Source: Candidatus Heimdallarchaeota archaeon (GTDB taxonomy: Archaea > Asgardarchaeota > Heimdallarchaeia > Heimdallarchaeales > Heimdallarchaeaceae). Taken from it: a stretch of 37,206 nt of DNA. Position 1 is the stretch's first letter, and each line of letters begins with the position of its first letter. The stretch spans positions 1 to 37,206 of the forward strand of contig JAGXNV010000005.1 in NCBI GenBank assembly GCA_019894795.1, read 5' to 3'. The notes beneath the pieces are model-generated. The model was not told the origin of the DNA, ran no database searches, and saw only the letters and a list, made by a program, of their open reading frames with translations. Shown here in pieces: positions 1 to 24,290 of this stretch. Both the position numbers and the translations under genes were made by a program.

Positions 1-468
1 CACGAGACTAGGGAAATTCAGAAATTGGAAAAAGTGAATTTCTTAGCCAATGGTACAAAATTAGATTTAACTTTAATCGACATGCCTGGAATTGCTACTT
101 CTGTTAATCCAAAGGAATTTATGAAGCACGGATTATCTGCAAGTGAAGCTATGCAGAGAGCTAAAGAAGCAACTAGAGGAATTGTTGAAGCGATAAAATA
201 TCTTGAACAAGTTGATGTAGCACTTGTTATAATTGATGCAACACGAGCACCTTTTGACCAAGTAAATTTCACAATCATAGGAAATCTAGAGCATCAGAAA
301 AAGCCATTCATATTAGTACCAAATAAAATTGACTTAATGGAAGCTGATGTAAGACTTGTCAGAGATGCTTTTAGTGGATATCCTGTTGTACCGGTTTCAG
401 CAACTCAAGGTGATGGTATTGATGAACTTTATGATAAAATTGCCGAACTGGCAAAAAAGGTGAGGTGA
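1..468 (+). CDS. arvA: ArvA-like small GTPase, 5'-truncated by window edge
   Basis: The reading frame is open to base 1, so the TTG at 25 offered by the ORF track is not the true start; the P-loop lies outside the window. The visible part opens with an HETR segment, then a G3 motif DMPG, a conserved loop ending FMKHGLS, and the G4 motif NKIDL, followed by a G5-like VSATQG. This matches the archaeal Era-like GTPase family whose haloarchaeal member was, as I recall, named ArvA for driving extracellular vesicle formation. Membrane remodelling is therefore the likely role, but this is transferred from family knowledge. The stop overlaps the region used to start the next gene, so the two are translationally linked. 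An ordinary Era-type ribosome GTPase is less likely because of the DUF2073 partner. Confidence 0.85.
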   Translation, partial: HETREIQKLEKVNFLANGTKLDLTLIDMPGIATSVNPKEFMKHGLSASEAMQRAKEATRGIVEAIKYLEQVDVALVIIDATRAPFDQVNFTIIGNLEHQKKPFILVPNKIDLMEADVRLVRDAFSGYPVVPVSATQGDGIDELYDKIAELAKKVR

Positions 469-473
469 TTGTG

Positions 474-824
474 ATGAAGTATAGAGTAGATTTTATACCA
501 TATGCAGAAACTAATGATCTCACTGAAGATGAAAAGATTAGATATATTTTATCCAAAGTGATGAGAAATACTATATTGGTACTTGAAAATGGTTTAACAC
601 CAGCTGAAGAGATGGATCTTATAAGCAAGACTATGGGAAAAATAGATTTCAATGATTTTGTGGGGTTAAAGCTCTTCTCATTTGATGGTGGGGATGATTT
701 CAAGCTTGCAAAGCTGTTTGGAAGAGGTTCAAAAAATAAGACCTTTACAATAGTAGCCCCAAATGAAGCGGTCTCAGTTCAAAAAGACCGACGCGGAATA
801 TTGTCAATTCGAATTAATGATTAA
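474..824 (+). CDS. arvB: ArvB / DUF2073 family protein
   Basis: This 116-residue protein begins VDFIPYAET after its start and has the mixed alpha/beta, Gly-rich tail pattern of DUF2073, an archaeal family that accompanies the ArvA-type GTPase. Its biochemical role is unknown to me; the conserved pairing suggests it is an effector or regulator of the GTPase. I place the start at ATG 474 rather than GTG 465, because a GAGGTGAT ribosome-binding site at 462-469 lies five bases upstream of 474 and overlaps the stop of the GTPase gene. The third usual partner, a small zinc-ribbon protein (ArvC), is not downstream; it may be upstream of the window or elsewhere. The gene ends four bases into the convergent Fap7 gene. 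Confidence 0.85.
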   Translation: MKYRVDFIPYAETNDLTEDEKIRYILSKVMRNTILVLENGLTPAEEMDLISKTMGKIDFNDFVGLKLFSFDGGDDFKLAKLFGRGSKNKTFTIVAPNEAVSVQKDRRGILSIRIND

Positions 825-1327
825 CTTTCACCTATCTTTCCTACAAGATCTAGAACACTCTGAAATGTCTCTTCAATTGAAACATCGGATTGAACTGTAT
901 CAACAATCTCAGGTCCATACAGATACAACATATCAGTGAGGATTACTTCCATGATTTCAGCTTCAACGTTCTCTTCAATCTTCGTAGCACTATAACTTCT
1001 GTCGATCAACCTTTGACGGAGATGTCGAATAGAACATCTGAGAACGATACAACAGGTAACATAAGAAGGAGGGAGTTCTACTACATGTCCATCAATTACA
1101 AGAGGCAGAGTTGAAGAGTTTTGGGCAATCAGTTCGATTAATCTTTTATTTAATAATTCATCATTCACCACATAACTATCTGTTTCTTCATCAAAATAAT
1201 CATATAATTTCTCTTCCTTGACAAGTTTTCCAGTTTCAATACTAGTATAACCTTCTGCTGAAAGAAGCTTTGATATAGTTGTTTTCCCTGTTCCAGGGGT
1301 TCCAGTGATCATGATCACTTGCTTCAT
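821..1327 (-). CDS. Fap7/AK6-type adenylate kinase-like protein
   Basis: The protein of 168 residues has a P-loop GTPGTGKTT at residues 9-17, a VIDGHVV segment matching the EGH motif of the family, an IVLRCS strand, and an ENVEAEIM helix, all in the order typical of Fap7/hCINAP (AK6). Family members are adenylate kinase-like ATPases needed for small ribosomal subunit maturation and occur in archaea and eukaryotes, not bacteria. The usual EGHxxH is changed to DGHVVE here, so the second histidine is absent. No ribosome-binding site precedes the ATG, and a TTTTTAATAT element sits about 15-25 bases upstream, so the transcript is probably leaderless. It is convergent with, and overlaps, the DUF2073 gene. 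Confidence 0.85.
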   Translation of the reverse strand: MKQVIMITGTPGTGKTTISKLLSAEGYTSIETGKLVKEEKLYDYFDEETDSYVVNDELLNKRLIELIAQNSSTLPLVIDGHVVELPPSYVTCCIVLRCSIRHLRQRLIDRSYSATKIEENVEAEIMEVILTDMLYLYGPEIVDTVQSDVSIEETFQSVLDLVGKIGES

Positions 1328-1454
1328 TGAAAAAAGATATTAAAAATCAGTTAAAAGAGTTCTCACAAAAGATAAAAAAGTCAGAAATTTCAGAAAAGTA
1401 GGAAAAATCAGAATGTTTATTAATGTGTTAACATACTTGAGCATAAGGATAGAA

Positions 1455-1736
1455 ATGAGTAAGAAGAAAGCTGAAGAGAAATGTTGTTCATCAAACTCAG
1501 ATGTATTAGGATGTTGCCATGTTGAAGGAATAGCCCAGATGGATAGAAAGGGGCAAATTGTTCTTCCTAAGAGTCTAAGAGATGAGATGGGGTTGCAAGA
1601 AAAGGATAAGCTAATAGTTATTGGTATGAGGGACAAGGGGAAGATAGCTAGCATTTCTCTAATTAAAGCTAACAAAATGGACAACATGGTAAAAATTATG
1701 CTCAAGCCAGTCATGAAAGAGATACTTGGGGAATAA
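1455..1736 (+). CDS. Cys-rich AbrB/MazE/SpoVT-type regulator (HgcAB-associated-protein-like)
   Basis: The start is ATG 1455, preceded by AAGGAT; the longer ORF from 1413 adds a non-conserved tail over the promoter. The 93-residue product has a charged, cysteine-rich head (KCCSS, then GCCHVE) followed by a swapped-hairpin AbrB domain with DRKGQIVLPKSLRDEMGL and KDKLIVIG. The head-plus-AbrB architecture resembles proteins annotated as HgcAB-associated in anaerobes. It lies about ten bases upstream of the arsenite methyltransferase and is almost certainly co-transcribed with it. The paired cysteines could bind As(III), Hg(II) or another soft metal and make this the local sensor; that is inference. 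Upstream lie a TATA-like TTTATTAA and an 8-bp palindrome TGTTAACA (1426-1433) that could be its operator. Confidence 0.8.
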   Translation: MSKKKAEEKCCSSNSDVLGCCHVEGIAQMDRKGQIVLPKSLRDEMGLQEKDKLIVIGMRDKGKIASISLIKANKMDNMVKIMLKPVMKEILGE

Positions 1737-1746
1737 GGTGAGAAAC

Positions 1747-2589
1747 ATGGAAACAAAAAACGTAAAGAAAATTGTAAGAGACAGATATGGTAAAGTAGCT
1801 AAAAGCCAATCCTCATGCTGTGGTTCAACAAAAGTGAATGCAGAGGAGGTAAGTAAAGCAATGGGATATACTTCACAAGAATTAGAAAGCATACCTGATG
1901 CAGCTAATATGGGATTAGGATGTGGCAACCCTACAGCAATAGCTTCACTCAAGGAAGGGGAAGTTGTGCTAGATTTAGGGGCAGGAGGAGGTCTTGATTG
2001 TTTTCTAGCTGCTCAAAAGGTAGGGATTAAAGGCAAAGTAATCGGAGTTGATATGACACCAGATATGATCGATTTAGCAAGAGATAATGCAGAGAAGAAT
2101 AACTTTGAAAATGTTGAATTTAGATTAGGTGAAATTGAAAATCTTCCTGTAGCTAATGATTCAGTAGATATTATTATTTCCAATTGCGTAATCAATCTGT
2201 CACCAGAAAAACAAAGAGTGTTCAATGAAGCATTTAGAGTACTTAAACCAGGAGGTAGGATCGCAATATCAGACATTGTGTTACTTAAAGAACTTCCAGA
2301 GGAATTAAGAAACAATGAAACACTTCTTGCGGGGTGTGTTGCAGGAGCAGAATTGAAAGATAAATATCTAGAGATGATCAAGAATGCAGGTTTCAAAAAC
2401 ATTGAAGTCGTAGAAAAAGCACAAACTTCCACTGAGTTGATGGATCCTGATGAAAGAAAAGGAGACCCTGTACTGGTAGTGGATGGTGAAATAATTGACA
2501 TTGAAGATTTTGAAGAAATAAAAGAAGGTGTTAATATCATTCAAGATTCAATTCAAAGTATAACCGTAGCAGCGATAAAACCAAAATAA
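1747..2589 (+). CDS. arsM: Arsenite S-adenosylmethionine methyltransferase
   Basis: ArsM transfers methyl groups from SAM to thiol-bound As(III), forming mono- and dimethyl arsenicals. The 280-residue protein has the SAM-binding motif LDLGAGGGLD and all family cysteines: the SSCCGS pair near residue 22, GCGNP near 58, SNCVINL near 146 and AGCVAG near 196. The tail with VLVVDGEI is typical of prokaryotic ArsM. ATG 1747 is chosen over the ORF-track start because AAGGTGAG ends four bases before it. It follows the Cys-rich AbrB gene in what looks like a two-gene operon and ends at a hairpin. Together with the ArsP-like permease at 18.4 kb it suggests a methylate-and-export arsenic route. Confidence 0.95.
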   Translation: METKNVKKIVRDRYGKVAKSQSSCCGSTKVNAEEVSKAMGYTSQELESIPDAANMGLGCGNPTAIASLKEGEVVLDLGAGGGLDCFLAAQKVGIKGKVIGVDMTPDMIDLARDNAEKNNFENVEFRLGEIENLPVANDSVDIIISNCVINLSPEKQRVFNEAFRVLKPGGRIAISDIVLLKELPEELRNNETLLAGCVAGAELKDKYLEMIKNAGFKNIEVVEKAQTSTELMDPDERKGDPVLVVDGEIIDIEDFEEIKEGVNIIQDSIQSITVAAIKPK

Positions 2590-2598
2590 GAGTATTAA

Positions 2599-2630
2599 GG
2601 TAAGTGAAAACTTACCATTAATTTATTTTA
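2599..2630. terminator. Hairpin terminator between arsM and plsY
   Basis: A perfect 7-bp inverted repeat GGTAAGT/ACTTACC (2599-2616) closes a GAAA tetraloop of the GNRA type, followed by a T-rich stretch. It lies ten bases after the arsM stop and just beyond the convergent plsY stop, so it may end transcription from both sides. Confidence 0.6.
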
Positions 2631-3351
2631 AAGCTTCATCGGAAAGCTTGCTTTTTCCTCTGAAAACTTTTAGTATGTTCATCTTCTTTGCTTCACCGGA
2701 TCTAATTTTTCTGAAATTATCACCTTGTCTGGATAGCATAATTATAGTTATACCGAAGAGAAGCAATGCTAAACCTAGATTACATTGAGCCCATGACATC
2801 AGCATAACTGAAGGTAAGAAGAGGGCTATTACTCCTACAAGAAATGTCACAACAATATAGGTAATTGAAGAGTAGCCTATTATTGTTATTATGATTGGCC
2901 AGAGTAAAACCCAAAAACCAAGCAATATGGGATTTGCTAATGCCATTGATGCTATTACTACGGTTATACCCTTTCCCCCAGAAGATAGTAGATAAATTGG
3001 CCAATTATGTCCAAGAATAGCACCAATTCCACTTAAAGCTAGCGCAAAACAAGCTAATCTATCATAAGGCCACACTGAAATGTACTCTGGATTAGTAAAA
3101 TAAAAATTTAAAGAGAGAAAATAAGGAAGAGCCATAGCAGTTAAAGATCGTGACGTATCAAGAAATCCAGCAAACACTGCCCAAGGTGTTGACTTTGTCG
3201 CACGATAAACATTCCTTCCACCAACATTTCCTGAACCTATTTCTCTTAAATCGTTTCCAGTTTTAAGTTTTGTAACAATCCAACTAAAAGGTATGGAACC
3301 AATAATATATGAACTGATAAATATTAGAATATAAACTACAGATATGTGCAT
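2623..3351 (-). CDS. plsY: PlsY-family glycerol-3-phosphate acyltransferase
   Basis: PlsY enzymes are membrane proteins that transfer an acyl group from acyl-phosphate to glycerol-3-phosphate in bacterial phospholipid synthesis. The protein (242 residues) shows GSIPFSW near residue 18, GSGNVGGRN at 39-47, and GHNWP followed by SGGKG near residues 112-127, the three family motifs, with about six hydrophobic segments. The second motif is usually GxTN; here it is GGRN. The tail after the last membrane segment is longer than usual and basic. An ester-lipid enzyme is unexpected in an archaeon, though Asgard genomes are known to carry such genes. The start gives the canonical short N-terminal membrane helix. 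It is divergent from the phosphohexomutase gene. Confidence 0.88.
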   Translation of the reverse strand: MHISVVYILIFISSYIIGSIPFSWIVTKLKTGNDLREIGSGNVGGRNVYRATKSTPWAVFAGFLDTSRSLTAMALPYFLSLNFYFTNPEYISVWPYDRLACFALALSGIGAILGHNWPIYLLSSGGKGITVVIASMALANPILLGFWVLLWPIIITIIGYSSITYIVVTFLVGVIALFLPSVMLMSWAQCNLGLALLLFGITIIMLSRQGDNFRKIRSGEAKKMNILKVFRGKSKLSDEALK

Positions 3352-5609: not shown

Positions 5610-6710
5610 TCAGCTATTTTCTCTAAATCTGTCTTCAAATTTCTTTAAAACACCAGGAAGTGTGGTATATTCCATTTCACTCAATGGGAGCCTTCCAGGT
5701 TCAAAGGGACCATGACGACGCATGTATTCTGCAATTTCGTTACACTTTTCTCTAGTTGAATCAAATGATGGGTCATCGAATAGGTCAACACCTCCAATAA
5801 GTTTTCCATTCTTCAATTGAAATCCTAAACCTATAACACGAGGGGGTCCATCAAAACGAACACACTGACTGTATTCAAGAGAGACAGGCATCAATGGCCC
5901 TCTGTGAGATCCTCGCATCCAGCCAGAAACAAGATGTCCTAAAGTGAACGCTTCAACAATCTCCCCTACAGCGGGAAAACCACTTTGGCTTCGGACTATA
6001 GCAACAGGATCATCCTTTCCAACGTATTTACCTGCAATCAAGGATAGTTTATCGGTAGATACAGATGCAGCTATTCCTAAATCAGGATTTTTACTCAATA
6101 CATATTTGATTACGTATTTGCTTGGAGCACCAACAAGAGCTAAAAGATCATACATTTCTTCTGGACAATTTAAGTCCAAGAATTTGTTATTGAAAACATC
6201 CATCACTGAGAACTTAAAACCATCATGTAGTTTTGGGTCAATAATCAACCCAGCAGTATTAAACGGATTTCCGAACATCTGGAAGATTGGATAATTGAAA
6301 GCTCCGGGTTCAGTTTTATCCATTGCAAAAACAAGGATTGGTTCTGCGGGTCTTTCCTCTATCTCCATTTCAGCACAACCTGGACCCATGCCTTTGACAT
6401 TTCCAGAAAATGTATCTTTTAATAGATCTTGTCCAGCACCATAGAGACCAATTTCTTTTGCTTCGGTTCCAAGATGCATGAACGTATCCCAAGCCAATTT
6501 GTGTATTTCTTCATTGTCTACACCTTTGTTGTGAGTCATAAGCAGTTCTGTATCATCACCTGCATTAAAAACGAGGAAATCTGTAATAATATTTTCATCC
6601 TTAGCTTTTTCCATTAGTTCTTCTGCCATAGTCATTAAAGGTTCATAAACTGTCACATGACCTGGGCTAGAACCTATATCAGCTTTAAGTAAACTTATTG
6701 TTGTTTTCAC
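5610..6710 (-). CDS. fbp: Bifunctional fructose-1,6-bisphosphate aldolase/phosphatase
   Basis: This enzyme condenses dihydroxyacetone phosphate with glyceraldehyde-3-phosphate and dephosphorylates the product, driving gluconeogenesis in archaea. Family motifs run throughout: KADIGS with Asp11 and His18, GDDTELLMTH (metal ligands), GNVKGMGPG, DKTEPGA, the Schiff-base segment GKYVGKDDP, GWMRGSHRGPLMPV and the C-terminal MEYTTLP tyrosine. I prefer GTG 6710 over ATG 6719, because relatives start directly at the MKTTIS stretch and AGGTGA lies nine bases upstream of the GTG; the ATG would add only three residues. The C-terminus is shorter than in crenarchaeal enzymes. Next to a class I FBPase-like and a class II aldolase gene on the same strand, it is one of two candidate systems here for the same steps. 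Confidence 0.95.
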   Translation of the reverse strand: MKTTISLLKADIGSSPGHVTVYEPLMTMAEELMEKAKDENIITDFLVFNAGDDTELLMTHNKGVDNEEIHKLAWDTFMHLGTEAKEIGLYGAGQDLLKDTFSGNVKGMGPGCAEMEIEERPAEPILVFAMDKTEPGAFNYPIFQMFGNPFNTAGLIIDPKLHDGFKFSVMDVFNNKFLDLNCPEEMYDLLALVGAPSKYVIKYVLSKNPDLGIAASVSTDKLSLIAGKYVGKDDPVAIVRSQSGFPAVGEIVEAFTLGHLVSGWMRGSHRGPLMPVSLEYSQCVRFDGPPRVIGLGFQLKNGKLIGGVDLFDDPSFDSTREKCNEIAEYMRRHGPFEPGRLPLSEMEYTTLPGVLKKFEDRFRENS

Positions 6711-6827
6711 CAAATGCAATCACCTAATAAAACCATACGGGTCGCTAATACATATTATGTTTAGTTAATTTAAATCTTTGCCTTTAGAGTGGTAATAAGT
6801 AAACAAAAAGAAAAAAAGGATAAAAAA

Positions 6828-7745
6828 CTATAATTCATCAATTTTGAACCAGAGCTCAATAAGATCTTTTGAGCCACCCACAAATCCTACTCGTCGATGG
6901 AGATAGTGCATCTGTGTTAATTTCTTGACATCAAGTGGCTTAATGTTTTCATATTTTATTTCATGGCCATCGGCAGTAATATAGAAACCATCGCCATTAA
7001 CCTTAGATAGAATGTATAGATAGGGGATTATCTCATAGACAAATCTAAGTTTAGGGGCAAAATAACCAAAAACACCTGTTTTCTCGAAAACGTTATTCAT
7101 ATCTTGTACCATACATCCGCCATATCTGTTCTTTCCTTTAATATCTAGAGCATCAACGAAGAGCTTCTGTTTTGCTGAATGATCATTATATTTTCCACCT
7201 AATCCAAAAACTGGACTTTTGCTTGGGCTAATATCCAATGTATCTCTTATGACGCGAAATGATTCACCATCATGAATAAACTGTATAAAACCTATTTCGG
7301 TTGCTAAATCAAATCTCAGATAAAGCGTGTAACTAACTGTTAAAGCTGCGACAGTAATGCCTTCCTGATTAATTATATTAACAATTGCCCCAGGACTTCT
7401 ACTTCTGATAATTGAAGAACCATCAATAAAATCTCCGAGAATGATGAAATTTCCTGTACCTTCCTTTATATTGTCTTCATCAGTTTCTTCACCAAGAAGC
7501 AGAGAATAAAGGTTATTAGGTATTTTTTGAAGAAAGAGTTCTTGAGTTGCAATATCGAGACTTAATTGTTCATCACCAGAAACATTAATTATCCCCGAGT
7601 AATCATTTTCCCCTAGTAAGAGAGTTAAGATTTGTTTTGGAACTTCCAAACTAATAGTTATTAGTTCTCTAAGTATTTCACTTAACTCTTCTGGCTGAAT
7701 GGCCTCAAGATAAGAATCAAGTGTATTGTATTTTGATATAGACAT
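6828..7745 (-). CDS. Divergent class I fructose-1,6-bisphosphatase-like protein
   Basis: The 305-residue protein keeps the sugar-phosphatase signature as DFIDGSS (compare DPLDGSS) near residue 105, an EE pair some 20 residues before it, a GGCMVQDMNN segment matching the family's GSMVAD, YEIIPY matching the LYE region, and HRRVGFVGGSKD near the C-terminus matching the HQR and GSKEDV stretch. It is therefore a Mg-dependent phosphatase of the class I FBPase fold, probably acting on fructose-1,6-bisphosphate, but overall it is distant and another sugar bisphosphate is possible. AGGATC lies seven bases before the ATG and the upstream class II aldolase stops eleven bases away, so the two form an operon, which supports the FBP assignment. 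Confidence 0.72.
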   Translation of the reverse strand: MSISKYNTLDSYLEAIQPEELSEILRELITISLEVPKQILTLLLGENDYSGIINVSGDEQLSLDIATQELFLQKIPNNLYSLLLGEETDEDNIKEGTGNFIILGDFIDGSSIIRSRSPGAIVNIINQEGITVAALTVSYTLYLRFDLATEIGFIQFIHDGESFRVIRDTLDISPSKSPVFGLGGKYNDHSAKQKLFVDALDIKGKNRYGGCMVQDMNNVFEKTGVFGYFAPKLRFVYEIIPYLYILSKVNGDGFYITADGHEIKYENIKPLDVKKLTQMHYLHRRVGFVGGSKDLIELWFKIDEL

Positions 7746-22382: not shown

Positions 22383-22979
22383 ATGTCTGAAGAAGAAATT
22401 ATTCCTGAAATCCCAGGAGTAGATCCAAACATAACAAAAGTTACTCCTTTTCAAGAAATAACGATTGCTGAAATACCTTCTGGTTCAATTATCGATATCG
22501 GTGGAGGAGGGGAAGGTGTTATCGCTCAAGTGGGTAAAGAAAGGGTAACCGCAATTGATAAACGTCAATCTGAGATTGACGAAGCAAAAGATAAAGCTCC
22601 TGAAGCAAAGTGGTTAGTAGCGGATGCTTTAGACTTACCTTTTGAAGATGAAGAATTTGACAATGCAACCTCTTTTTTCAGCGGCATGTACATGTCTCAT
22701 GAAGATAAAAAGAAAGCAATAAAAGAAGTTTATAGAGTAATATCTCCTGGTGGGGAATTATGGATTTGGGATTCCAAAGTTCACACAGACAAAAAGAGCT
22801 TCATAATTGTCTTAACAATATCTTTGTCAGGTAAGGAGAAATTCAACACAGGGTACGGCAACAAGACAACAGATCAAAACGAGAATATGTACAAAGAATA
22901 TTTGGAAGAATCAGGTTTTAGTATAGAAGAAATAGAAGTGAATAAGTATTGGTTCTTTATTAGAGCAAAGAAAACATAA
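22383..22979 (+). CDS. Class I SAM-dependent methyltransferase
   Basis: The Rossmann core is visible with motif I IIDIGGGGEGVIAQVG near residues 38-53, an acidic residue in AIDKR after strand two, LVADALDLPFEDEEFDNAT and the RVISPGGELWIWD segment. At 198 residues it is compact and the substrate is unknown. The upstream TTTATAAGTA element about 25-30 bases before the ATG indicates a leaderless transcript. A second, larger methyltransferase with zinc ribbons follows after 45 bases on the same strand. Confidence 0.85.
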   Translation: MSEEEIIPEIPGVDPNITKVTPFQEITIAEIPSGSIIDIGGGGEGVIAQVGKERVTAIDKRQSEIDEAKDKAPEAKWLVADALDLPFEDEEFDNATSFFSGMYMSHEDKKKAIKEVYRVISPGGELWIWDSKVHTDKKSFIIVLTISLSGKEKFNTGYGNKTTDQNENMYKEYLEESGFSIEEIEVNKYWFFIRAKKT

Positions 22980-23024
22980 ATTGCCGAAGATAGAATTTTT
23001 ATATTCAGCTTTGGTTTTCATTTT

Positions 23025-24290
23025 ATGAGTTATTCTGAATCAGAAATGTGTTTCTATTGTAAAGAATATTATAAAGTCACACAAGATTATCCTGTCAATA
23101 TAGCAACTTATGATGTAGGTTCTTTTACTCCCCGTTGTTTTCTTCATTGGCAGTATGACTGTAAAAAATGCGGAAAAATGACACATTTCAATGGAGTTGC
23201 TTGGTGTTCGGTATGCAAAGAGTTTACCTGCGTGCATTGTGTAGAAGAAAGAATGGTAAGAAAAGAATTCCTCGTTTATGATTATTATTATGAAATTCCA
23301 TGTCACAAATGTGGTGAGTATAATCCTGCTCTAGATTTTGCAGAATATAATGGAACACACCCATTTCAAATTGGAGATCAAATACCAAAAGAAGATATCG
23401 TAATTTGGATGCCCATCTATAAGGAATTAAATCAACAGGAATTCCCCCACAGAGCTTGGGGATCAGAGAGAATACTTGACTTAGGAAAAGCACCCAAGCA
23501 CACAAGATTGGACTCTCTTGATGAATATACTCCAAAGTCAACTTGGGATAAAATGGCAACACTCTGGGTATCGCCTGAAACAGAAGGTGAGTATCATCAT
23601 ACAAATCTAATTTTACCAGAAATATATAGGATGCTTGATGCACAAGAAAATGAAAAAATACTCGATGTTGCTTGTGGTGAAGGAACTGTAGCCAGATATT
23701 TAGCTAAACTTGGAACAAAAGTGACAGGAATCGATATTTCGAAAATGATTGATAGAGCAGTGGAAAGAGAAAATGAAGATATGTTGGGAATTCATTATAT
23801 CAAAATGGCTGCTGAAGATTTAAGCAACAAATTTGAGAGAGATACTTTTGATAAAGTTATTTGTAATATGGCTCTAATGGATATTGAAGACTATCAAACC
23901 ACAATCAAAAACATCTCTTATATTTTGAAAGGAGATGGGGTCTTTGTCTTTAGCATAACCCACCCTGCTTTTGCTTGGCCAGCAACTACTTCGATACGCG
24001 TTCCTCAGGATAGTCAGAGAAATGAGGATAAACGTAAAATCGCTTTGAACTACTTTGATGAAAGACCAACGTTGATCTATTTCGGTTGGGAAGCTCCATC
24101 AATTGCTTTTCCTAGACCGATTAGCAAATATGTAAATGAATTAGTCAAAAATAACTTAGAGGTTCTAGAGATGAGTGAACCAAAAGCTTCTGAAGAGCTA
24201 GTAGAAAAGTTTCCAAGACAATCTTATCTAGATAATGATACACTTCCTGATTTTCTTATGATAAAAACAAAGAAGAAATCAACTAGATAG
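23025..24290 (+). CDS. Zinc-ribbon/methyltransferase fusion protein
   Basis: The N-terminal ~110 residues carry five CxxC half-sites (CFYC, CKKC, CSVC, CVHC, CHKC), enough for two or more zinc-binding knuckles, as in nucleic-acid or protein binding ribbons. After a linker, the methyltransferase core starts near residue 211 with ILDVACGEGTVARYL, an acidic GIDIS, and the FDKVICNMALMDIED motif, ending with a SITHPAFAWP stretch seen in Methyltransf_11/25 proteins. The target is unknown; the zinc part suggests a macromolecular substrate such as RNA or protein. It follows another methyltransferase and ends next to the convergent GNAT pseudogene. Confidence 0.82.
   Translation: MSYSESEMCFYCKEYYKVTQDYPVNIATYDVGSFTPRCFLHWQYDCKKCGKMTHFNGVAWCSVCKEFTCVHCVEERMVRKEFLVYDYYYEIPCHKCGEYNPALDFAEYNGTHPFQIGDQIPKEDIVIWMPIYKELNQQEFPHRAWGSERILDLGKAPKHTRLDSLDEYTPKSTWDKMATLWVSPETEGEYHHTNLILPEIYRMLDAQENEKILDVACGEGTVARYLAKLGTKVTGIDISKMIDRAVERENEDMLGIHYIKMAAEDLSNKFERDTFDKVICNMALMDIEDYQTTIKNISYILKGDGVFVFSITHPAFAWPATTSIRVPQDSQRNEDKRKIALNYFDERPTLIYFGWEAPSIAFPRPISKYVNELVKNNLEVLEMSEPKASEELVEKFPRQSYLDNDTLPDFLMIKTKKKSTR

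Follow-up and report, generated by a model that had tools for sequence, protein, structure and literature searches.

The closest described system is the ArvA-ArvB-ArvC set of Haloferax volcanii (OapA-OapB-OapC, HVO_3014-3012; Mills et al. 2024, PMC10927574), in which vesicle output falls approximately threefold when arvA or arvB is deleted, rises 1.65-fold when arvC is deleted, and rises 3.5-fold when arvA is overexpressed. Deletion in H. volcanii also alters the cell shape and growth, and GEF/GAP-like roles for the partner proteins are a suggestion of the same authors (PMC10927574). The oapABC genes were first named for their position near the replication origin. In the published models, the N-terminal extension of H. 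volcanii ArvA is an amphipathic helix and the closest structural match of ArvB is SepF, and an HHpred link of ArvA to Arf was reported (PMC10927574). The count of ArvA homologs reached 1,666 across 14 archaeal phyla, with representatives in DPANN and Korarchaeota and in 8 of the 183 Asgard genomes, and a third clade, composed of Asgard, Thermoproteota, and Hydrothermarchaeota sequences, had a bootstrap of 56 (PMC10927574). The occurrence of the ArvA family in some Asgard archaea is already published, and these counts correct a sequence-only reading of the DNA analysed here, which held that the system is regarded as euryarchaeal and that an Asgard host would widen its range. In our literature search, the term 'archaeal vesiculating GTPase' was not found outside the ArvA paper, no paper since 2024 combining ArvA, Asgard, and GTPase was found, and no experiment on ArvA in any Asgard archaeon was found.

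The window, which is the whole stretch of DNA that we analysed (37,206 bases), is the entire contig C319 of an Asgard MAG (3.07 Mb, 363 contigs) with 89% completeness and an estimated contamination of 6.97%. The host is an Asgard archaeon of the Heimdallarchaeia, in the genus of AB_125 and the family of Heimdallarchaeum endolithica. Among named genomes, the GTPase has its relatives in Heimdallarchaeota MAGs such as AB_125 from the same genus and H. endolithica from the same family, and together with the tree described below these relatives bear out the Asgard host that had been considered probable.

The open frame at the start of the window encodes 155 residues with the motifs G3 (DMPGIA), G4 (NKID), and G5 (SA); the G1/Walker A part is absent from the window because the contig begins within arvA. 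Pfam assigns the translated part to GTP_EFTU (2.8e-9) and MMR_HSR1 (2.2e-6), and it is 82% identical to a full-length 204-residue ortholog of the same genus. The arvB gene lies directly downstream, its start overlapping the arvA stop by 4 bases, and its product matches PF09846 (OapB) with an E value of 6.2e-21 and 74.8 bits, above the curated cut-off of 27 bits. At the level of sequence, the Pfam OapB match, the G motifs, and the 82% ortholog confirm that the first 824 bases carry the pair of an ArvA-type GTPase and ArvB, as the sequence-only reading had proposed for a GTPase and a DUF2073 protein. Synteny of the pair extends to about 20 genomes of the window's family. The coordinates of all features are collected in Table 1.

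Table 1. Coordinates of the arv genes and of nearby genes in the window and on related contigs.
Feature	Position	Strand	Basis or remark
arvA 3' part, residues 50-204 of a 204-aa Era-like small GTPase	window 1..468	+	open frame without start, Pfam, ortholog match
arvA 5' part, first 51 codons	G000:C11:28256-28410		overlaps window by 8 bases
arvB (OapB, formerly DUF2073, PF09846), 119 aa	window 465..824	+	Pfam
arvC (DUF2072, OapC, PF09845, zinc ribbon)	C11 ~22,803-23,168	same strand as arvA	Pfam E 4e-12, CxxC...CxxC
AK6-like / adenylate-kinase-like gene	window 821-1327	-	PRK03839 family
HgcC-like AbrB protein	window 1413-2589	+	NF040962
PlsY-type glycerol-3-phosphate acyltransferase	window 2623-3351	-	PF02660, E 2e-28
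Fructose-1,6-bisphosphatases of two families	window 5610-7745	-	PF01950 and PF00316/PF18913
Rpb5/Rpo5 with eukaryote-like N-terminal domain	L179:9246-10055 (G000:C11 ~23,245-24,054); L180:4226-4891; L181:4008-4886
407-residue protein with Gtr1/Rag- and Arf-like GTPase domain	L179:15-1238	-	contig preceding the window

Several neighbours of the pair were recorded in their own right. The AK6-like kinase gene is convergent with arvB, the 3' ends overlapping by 4 bases, and such a kinase also adjoins arvAB in family f6, where it is encoded in the direction of the pair. The HgcC-like gene stands beside the arsenite methyltransferase ArsM, and the PlsY-type acyltransferase represents a lipid enzyme of bacterial type within an archaeal genome; a sequence homolog of PlsY is also found near arvAB in H. 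endolithica. The two fructose-1,6-bisphosphatase genes adjoin each other.

A GTPase profile search located the N-terminal 51 residues of arvA right where contig C11 of the same genome ends. The C11 terminus reads ...CACGAGAC and the window starts with CACGAGAC..., with frames that agree across the junction, and around this 8-base overlap (C11 terminus ...ATACCACACGAGAC, window start CACGAGACTAGG...) the reading frame is kept. The joined ArvA has 204 residues, begins at a TTG start as (M)SWRLWLKSRPKSVNLGFYGEVNAGKTTLANKIGLDWANQEVGTVSEIPHETR..., and is collinear with the complete orthologs of the genus. From the overlap, the frame, and the synteny, we infer the C11-C319 junction and a complete arvA, so that the upstream contig which the sequence-only reading had wished to obtain is supplied by C11. 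The full-length protein is a single domain of fewer than 250 residues with intact G1 (GEVNAGKTT), G3, G4, and G5 motifs.

The zinc-ribbon gene sought as the third partner is also present on C11, and its OapC match passes the Pfam cut-off. ArvC had been described as not in sight because the contig break separates arvC from the window, but the gene is situated approximately 5.1 kb upstream of arvA in the same direction, whereas the ArvA family usually has arvC no more than two genes downstream. Of the family genomes, 13 have arvC and arvA together on a single contig, and in all of these arvC is found approximately 4-6 kb upstream of arvA on the same strand. The closed H. endolithica genome shows the gene order arvC - rpb5 - cofD - Dus-like - cofC - peptidase - arvA - arvB, with gene names transferred from the C11 homologs. 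Compared with H. volcanii, the window's family places arvC upstream, with rpb5-cofD-(Dus-like)-cofC-peptidase between arvC and arvA. Common to both are the Pfam families and a single-domain small GTPase with a DUF2073 protein encoded immediately after it and a zinc-ribbon protein of the DUF2072 type nearby.

The rpb5 gene in this interval was noted separately. Residues 36-188 of the L180 protein align with residues 52-205 of plant Rpb5 (E 2e-18), and Pfam gives Rpb5_N at 9e-5, while archaeal Rpo5/subunit H chains among the PDB matches have 77-84 residues and consist of the C-terminal domain only. The N-terminal part of Rpb5 was matched in 70 of the 228 Asgard genomes, and our literature search did not find a paper on an Asgard Rpb5 with a eukaryote-like N-terminal domain.

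Of the 228 Asgard genomes, 68 contain ArvA, 67 contain ArvB, and at least 50 contain ArvC. ArvA is present in 51 of the 59 Heimdallarchaeia genomes but in only 17 of the 169 Asgard genomes outside the class, the latter including Baldrarchaeia, Jordarchaeia, Wukongarchaeum, and several other families; five of the eight absences within the class fall in one group, f6/g12. In four genomes of that group (G037, G039, G041, and G048), ArvA and ArvB were undetected and ArvC was kept, which suggests a role of ArvC apart from ArvA. The arvC gene lies directly downstream of arvAB in f5 (within the class), f7, f13, f20, and Jordarchaea, divergently upstream in Baldrarchaea, and unlinked in f6. An apparent absence of ArvC from f5 in the Pfam genome search was a sensitivity effect, since the proteins either pass the cut-off when scanned singly or are recovered by a local profile. 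One genome, G030, has two diverged arvA-arvB loci (L182 and L183), one with arvC downstream and the other without. Of 14 control genomes, just two, those of Haloferax volcanii and Methanosarcina acetivorans, contain the OapB and OapC families; NCBIfam contains no ArvB model and no ArvA-specific model. A nearly invariant signature, SEIPHETR...RAKEATxGI, is common to the full-length ArvA and to relatives in DPANN and other archaea with ordered arvA-arvB-arvC loci.

The profile of ArvA matches Der/EngA best in the PDB (2e-17), together with MnmE and Era, while Arl3 ranks far lower (~1e-5); in Pfam, the full-length protein hits MMR_HSR1 (2e-14), with Arf absent down to an E value of 0.01. The predicted structure (pLDDT 88) is nearest to Era (E 1e-10) and to the MnmE G domain (TM 0.73 on the target); Rho, Rab, Ras, and Arl follow further down the list of fold matches. 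Compared with Era, Der, and MnmE, ArvA stands alone without a KH or second G domain and has a conserved GL..EA..RAKEATxGI stretch between G3 and G4. The likeness to eukaryotic Arf, Arl, and Rab consists of the G-domain fold and some functional analogy in membrane budding, but the sequence similarity is weaker than that to Der and Era, and no specific affinity was found. The reported HHpred link to Arf is not contradicted by these results but is unspecific, and the connection to eukaryotic trafficking implied by the sequence-only reading is weak, given the proximity to Era, MnmE, and Der in both sequence and fold. The N-terminal helix in the window's family (SWRLWLKSRPK) is short and belongs to a low-confidence part of the model, with hydrophobic moments of 0.29-0.37 that are not above those of shuffles; the family differs from H. 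volcanii in that its short helix (WRLWLK) lacks clear amphipathicity. Many ArvA of DPANN and the probable Hydrothermarchaeota have a clear N-terminal amphipathic helix, with moments of ~0.6-1.0. The ArvB model (pLDDT 84.7) is a confident small alpha/beta structure with no significant PDB match, and its similarity to SepF (8hzt; TM 0.56 on the target, E 0.36) is weak.

The ArvA tree comprises 82 sequences from Asgard, DPANN, the probable Hydrothermarchaeota, and Altiarchaeota, and its root was not inferred. The window copy falls within its family (100/99) and within the order f1-f4 (97/87), and all 40 Asgard ArvA form one clade with a support of 99/98 in the full set and of 100/96 once a long Nanohaloarchaeal row and the long paralogs from Altiarchaeota are excluded. 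This clade is sister to the probable Hydrothermarchaeota phylum (98/93) and is not inside DPANN; the data do not reject a single clade of Heimdallarchaeia (p-AU 0.43). The ArvB tree, built from few columns, agrees in topology and places the Asgard sequences on one side, without strong support (91/5). That the contig is a contaminant from a non-Asgard genome might be considered from the MAG estimate of 6.97%, but the order arvA-arvB-kinase-hgcC-arsM recurs in independent MAGs of the genus, synteny extends in part to the closed genome of H. endolithica, and the window ArvA lies inside its family in the tree; synteny and tree rule this out in practice, and bin contamination is not credible. Lateral gain of the Asgard copies from DPANN or other archaea of the same sediments would fit the patchy occurrence across the Asgards as a whole (17 of 169 genomes outside the class), and the top non-Asgard identities (55-58%) rival those to other Heimdallarchaeal families. 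It is nevertheless very improbable in view of the single Asgard clade beside the probable Hydrothermarchaeota and outside DPANN, the clade of the order, and the compatibility with Heimdallarchaeia monophyly. From the single Asgard clade, ArvA therefore looks inherited and not sporadically acquired, and the data favour vertical inheritance with losses in the Asgards. The sequence-only reading had called for such a tree; the window copy does group with the GTPases of arvA-arvB-arvC operons in DPANN and the probable Hydrothermarchaeota, but haloarchaeal or methanogen ArvA were found neither among the 80 named loci nor on plasmids or viral contigs, so that orthology to the tested H. volcanii protein rests on the three-gene context and the Pfam families. 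Separately, three Altiarchaeota loci (L224-L226) carry second, strongly diverged ArvA-like GTPases with no adjoining arvB.

We consider the locus a probable Heimdallarchaeal ortholog of the ArvA-ArvB-ArvC module with a vesicle-budding function by analogy, with a probability of roughly 0.65. Since the same three proteins are present here, the best guess is a budding process that would be driven by ArvA, dependent on ArvB, and restrained by ArvC. In one of its nucleotide states, ArvA would associate with the membrane and promote the budding of extracellular vesicles; ArvB would be required for this activity, possibly as an activator or adaptor; and ArvC would restrain ArvA. By analogy with H. 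volcanii, we infer GTPase activity, membrane binding, and vesiculation in the window's organism as well as GEF/GAP-like roles of the partners. The main rival accepts the orthologous module but assigns it another job in the Asgards, related to the membrane, division, or the ribosome, with an Era/Der-like GTPase and a SepF-like adaptor, the vesicle changes in H. volcanii being one readout among others. The affinity of ArvA to Der, Era, and MnmE, the altered cell shape and growth of the H. volcanii deletion, the weak membrane helix of the window's family, the origin of the oapABC name, the AK6-like kinase neighbour in f1 and f6, and the persistence of ArvC in f6 genomes without ArvA and ArvB all lend it some weight. 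We regard it as rather unlikely, with the direct and opposite effects of the deletions and the overexpression on vesicle number in H. volcanii standing against it and on the side of vesicle budding.

The Asgard ArvA of the earlier count (Mills et al. 2024; 8 of 183 genomes) share family and phylum with the window copy, and they differ from the present count of 68 of 228, with its clade at 100/96, also in the genome set and the detection method. New here are the near-universality in Heimdallarchaeia, the strongly supported Asgard clade, the varied placement of arvC, and the complete module of this genome. The published frequency implied that ArvA is rare in the Asgards, but it is close to universal in the Heimdallarchaeia, the class to which the origin of eukaryotes is usually traced, and vesicle output could be tested there with a defined three-gene set that stands apart from the usually discussed Arf, Rab, and ESCRT parts. 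A tentative and somewhat doubtful extension is that the last Asgard common ancestor already possessed the ArvABC vesiculation module, which was then lost in many lineages but kept near-universally in the Heimdallarchaeia. If this is true, the archaeal line closest to eukaryotes would have had an Era-type, non-Arf, and non-ESCRT GTPase system for vesicle budding.
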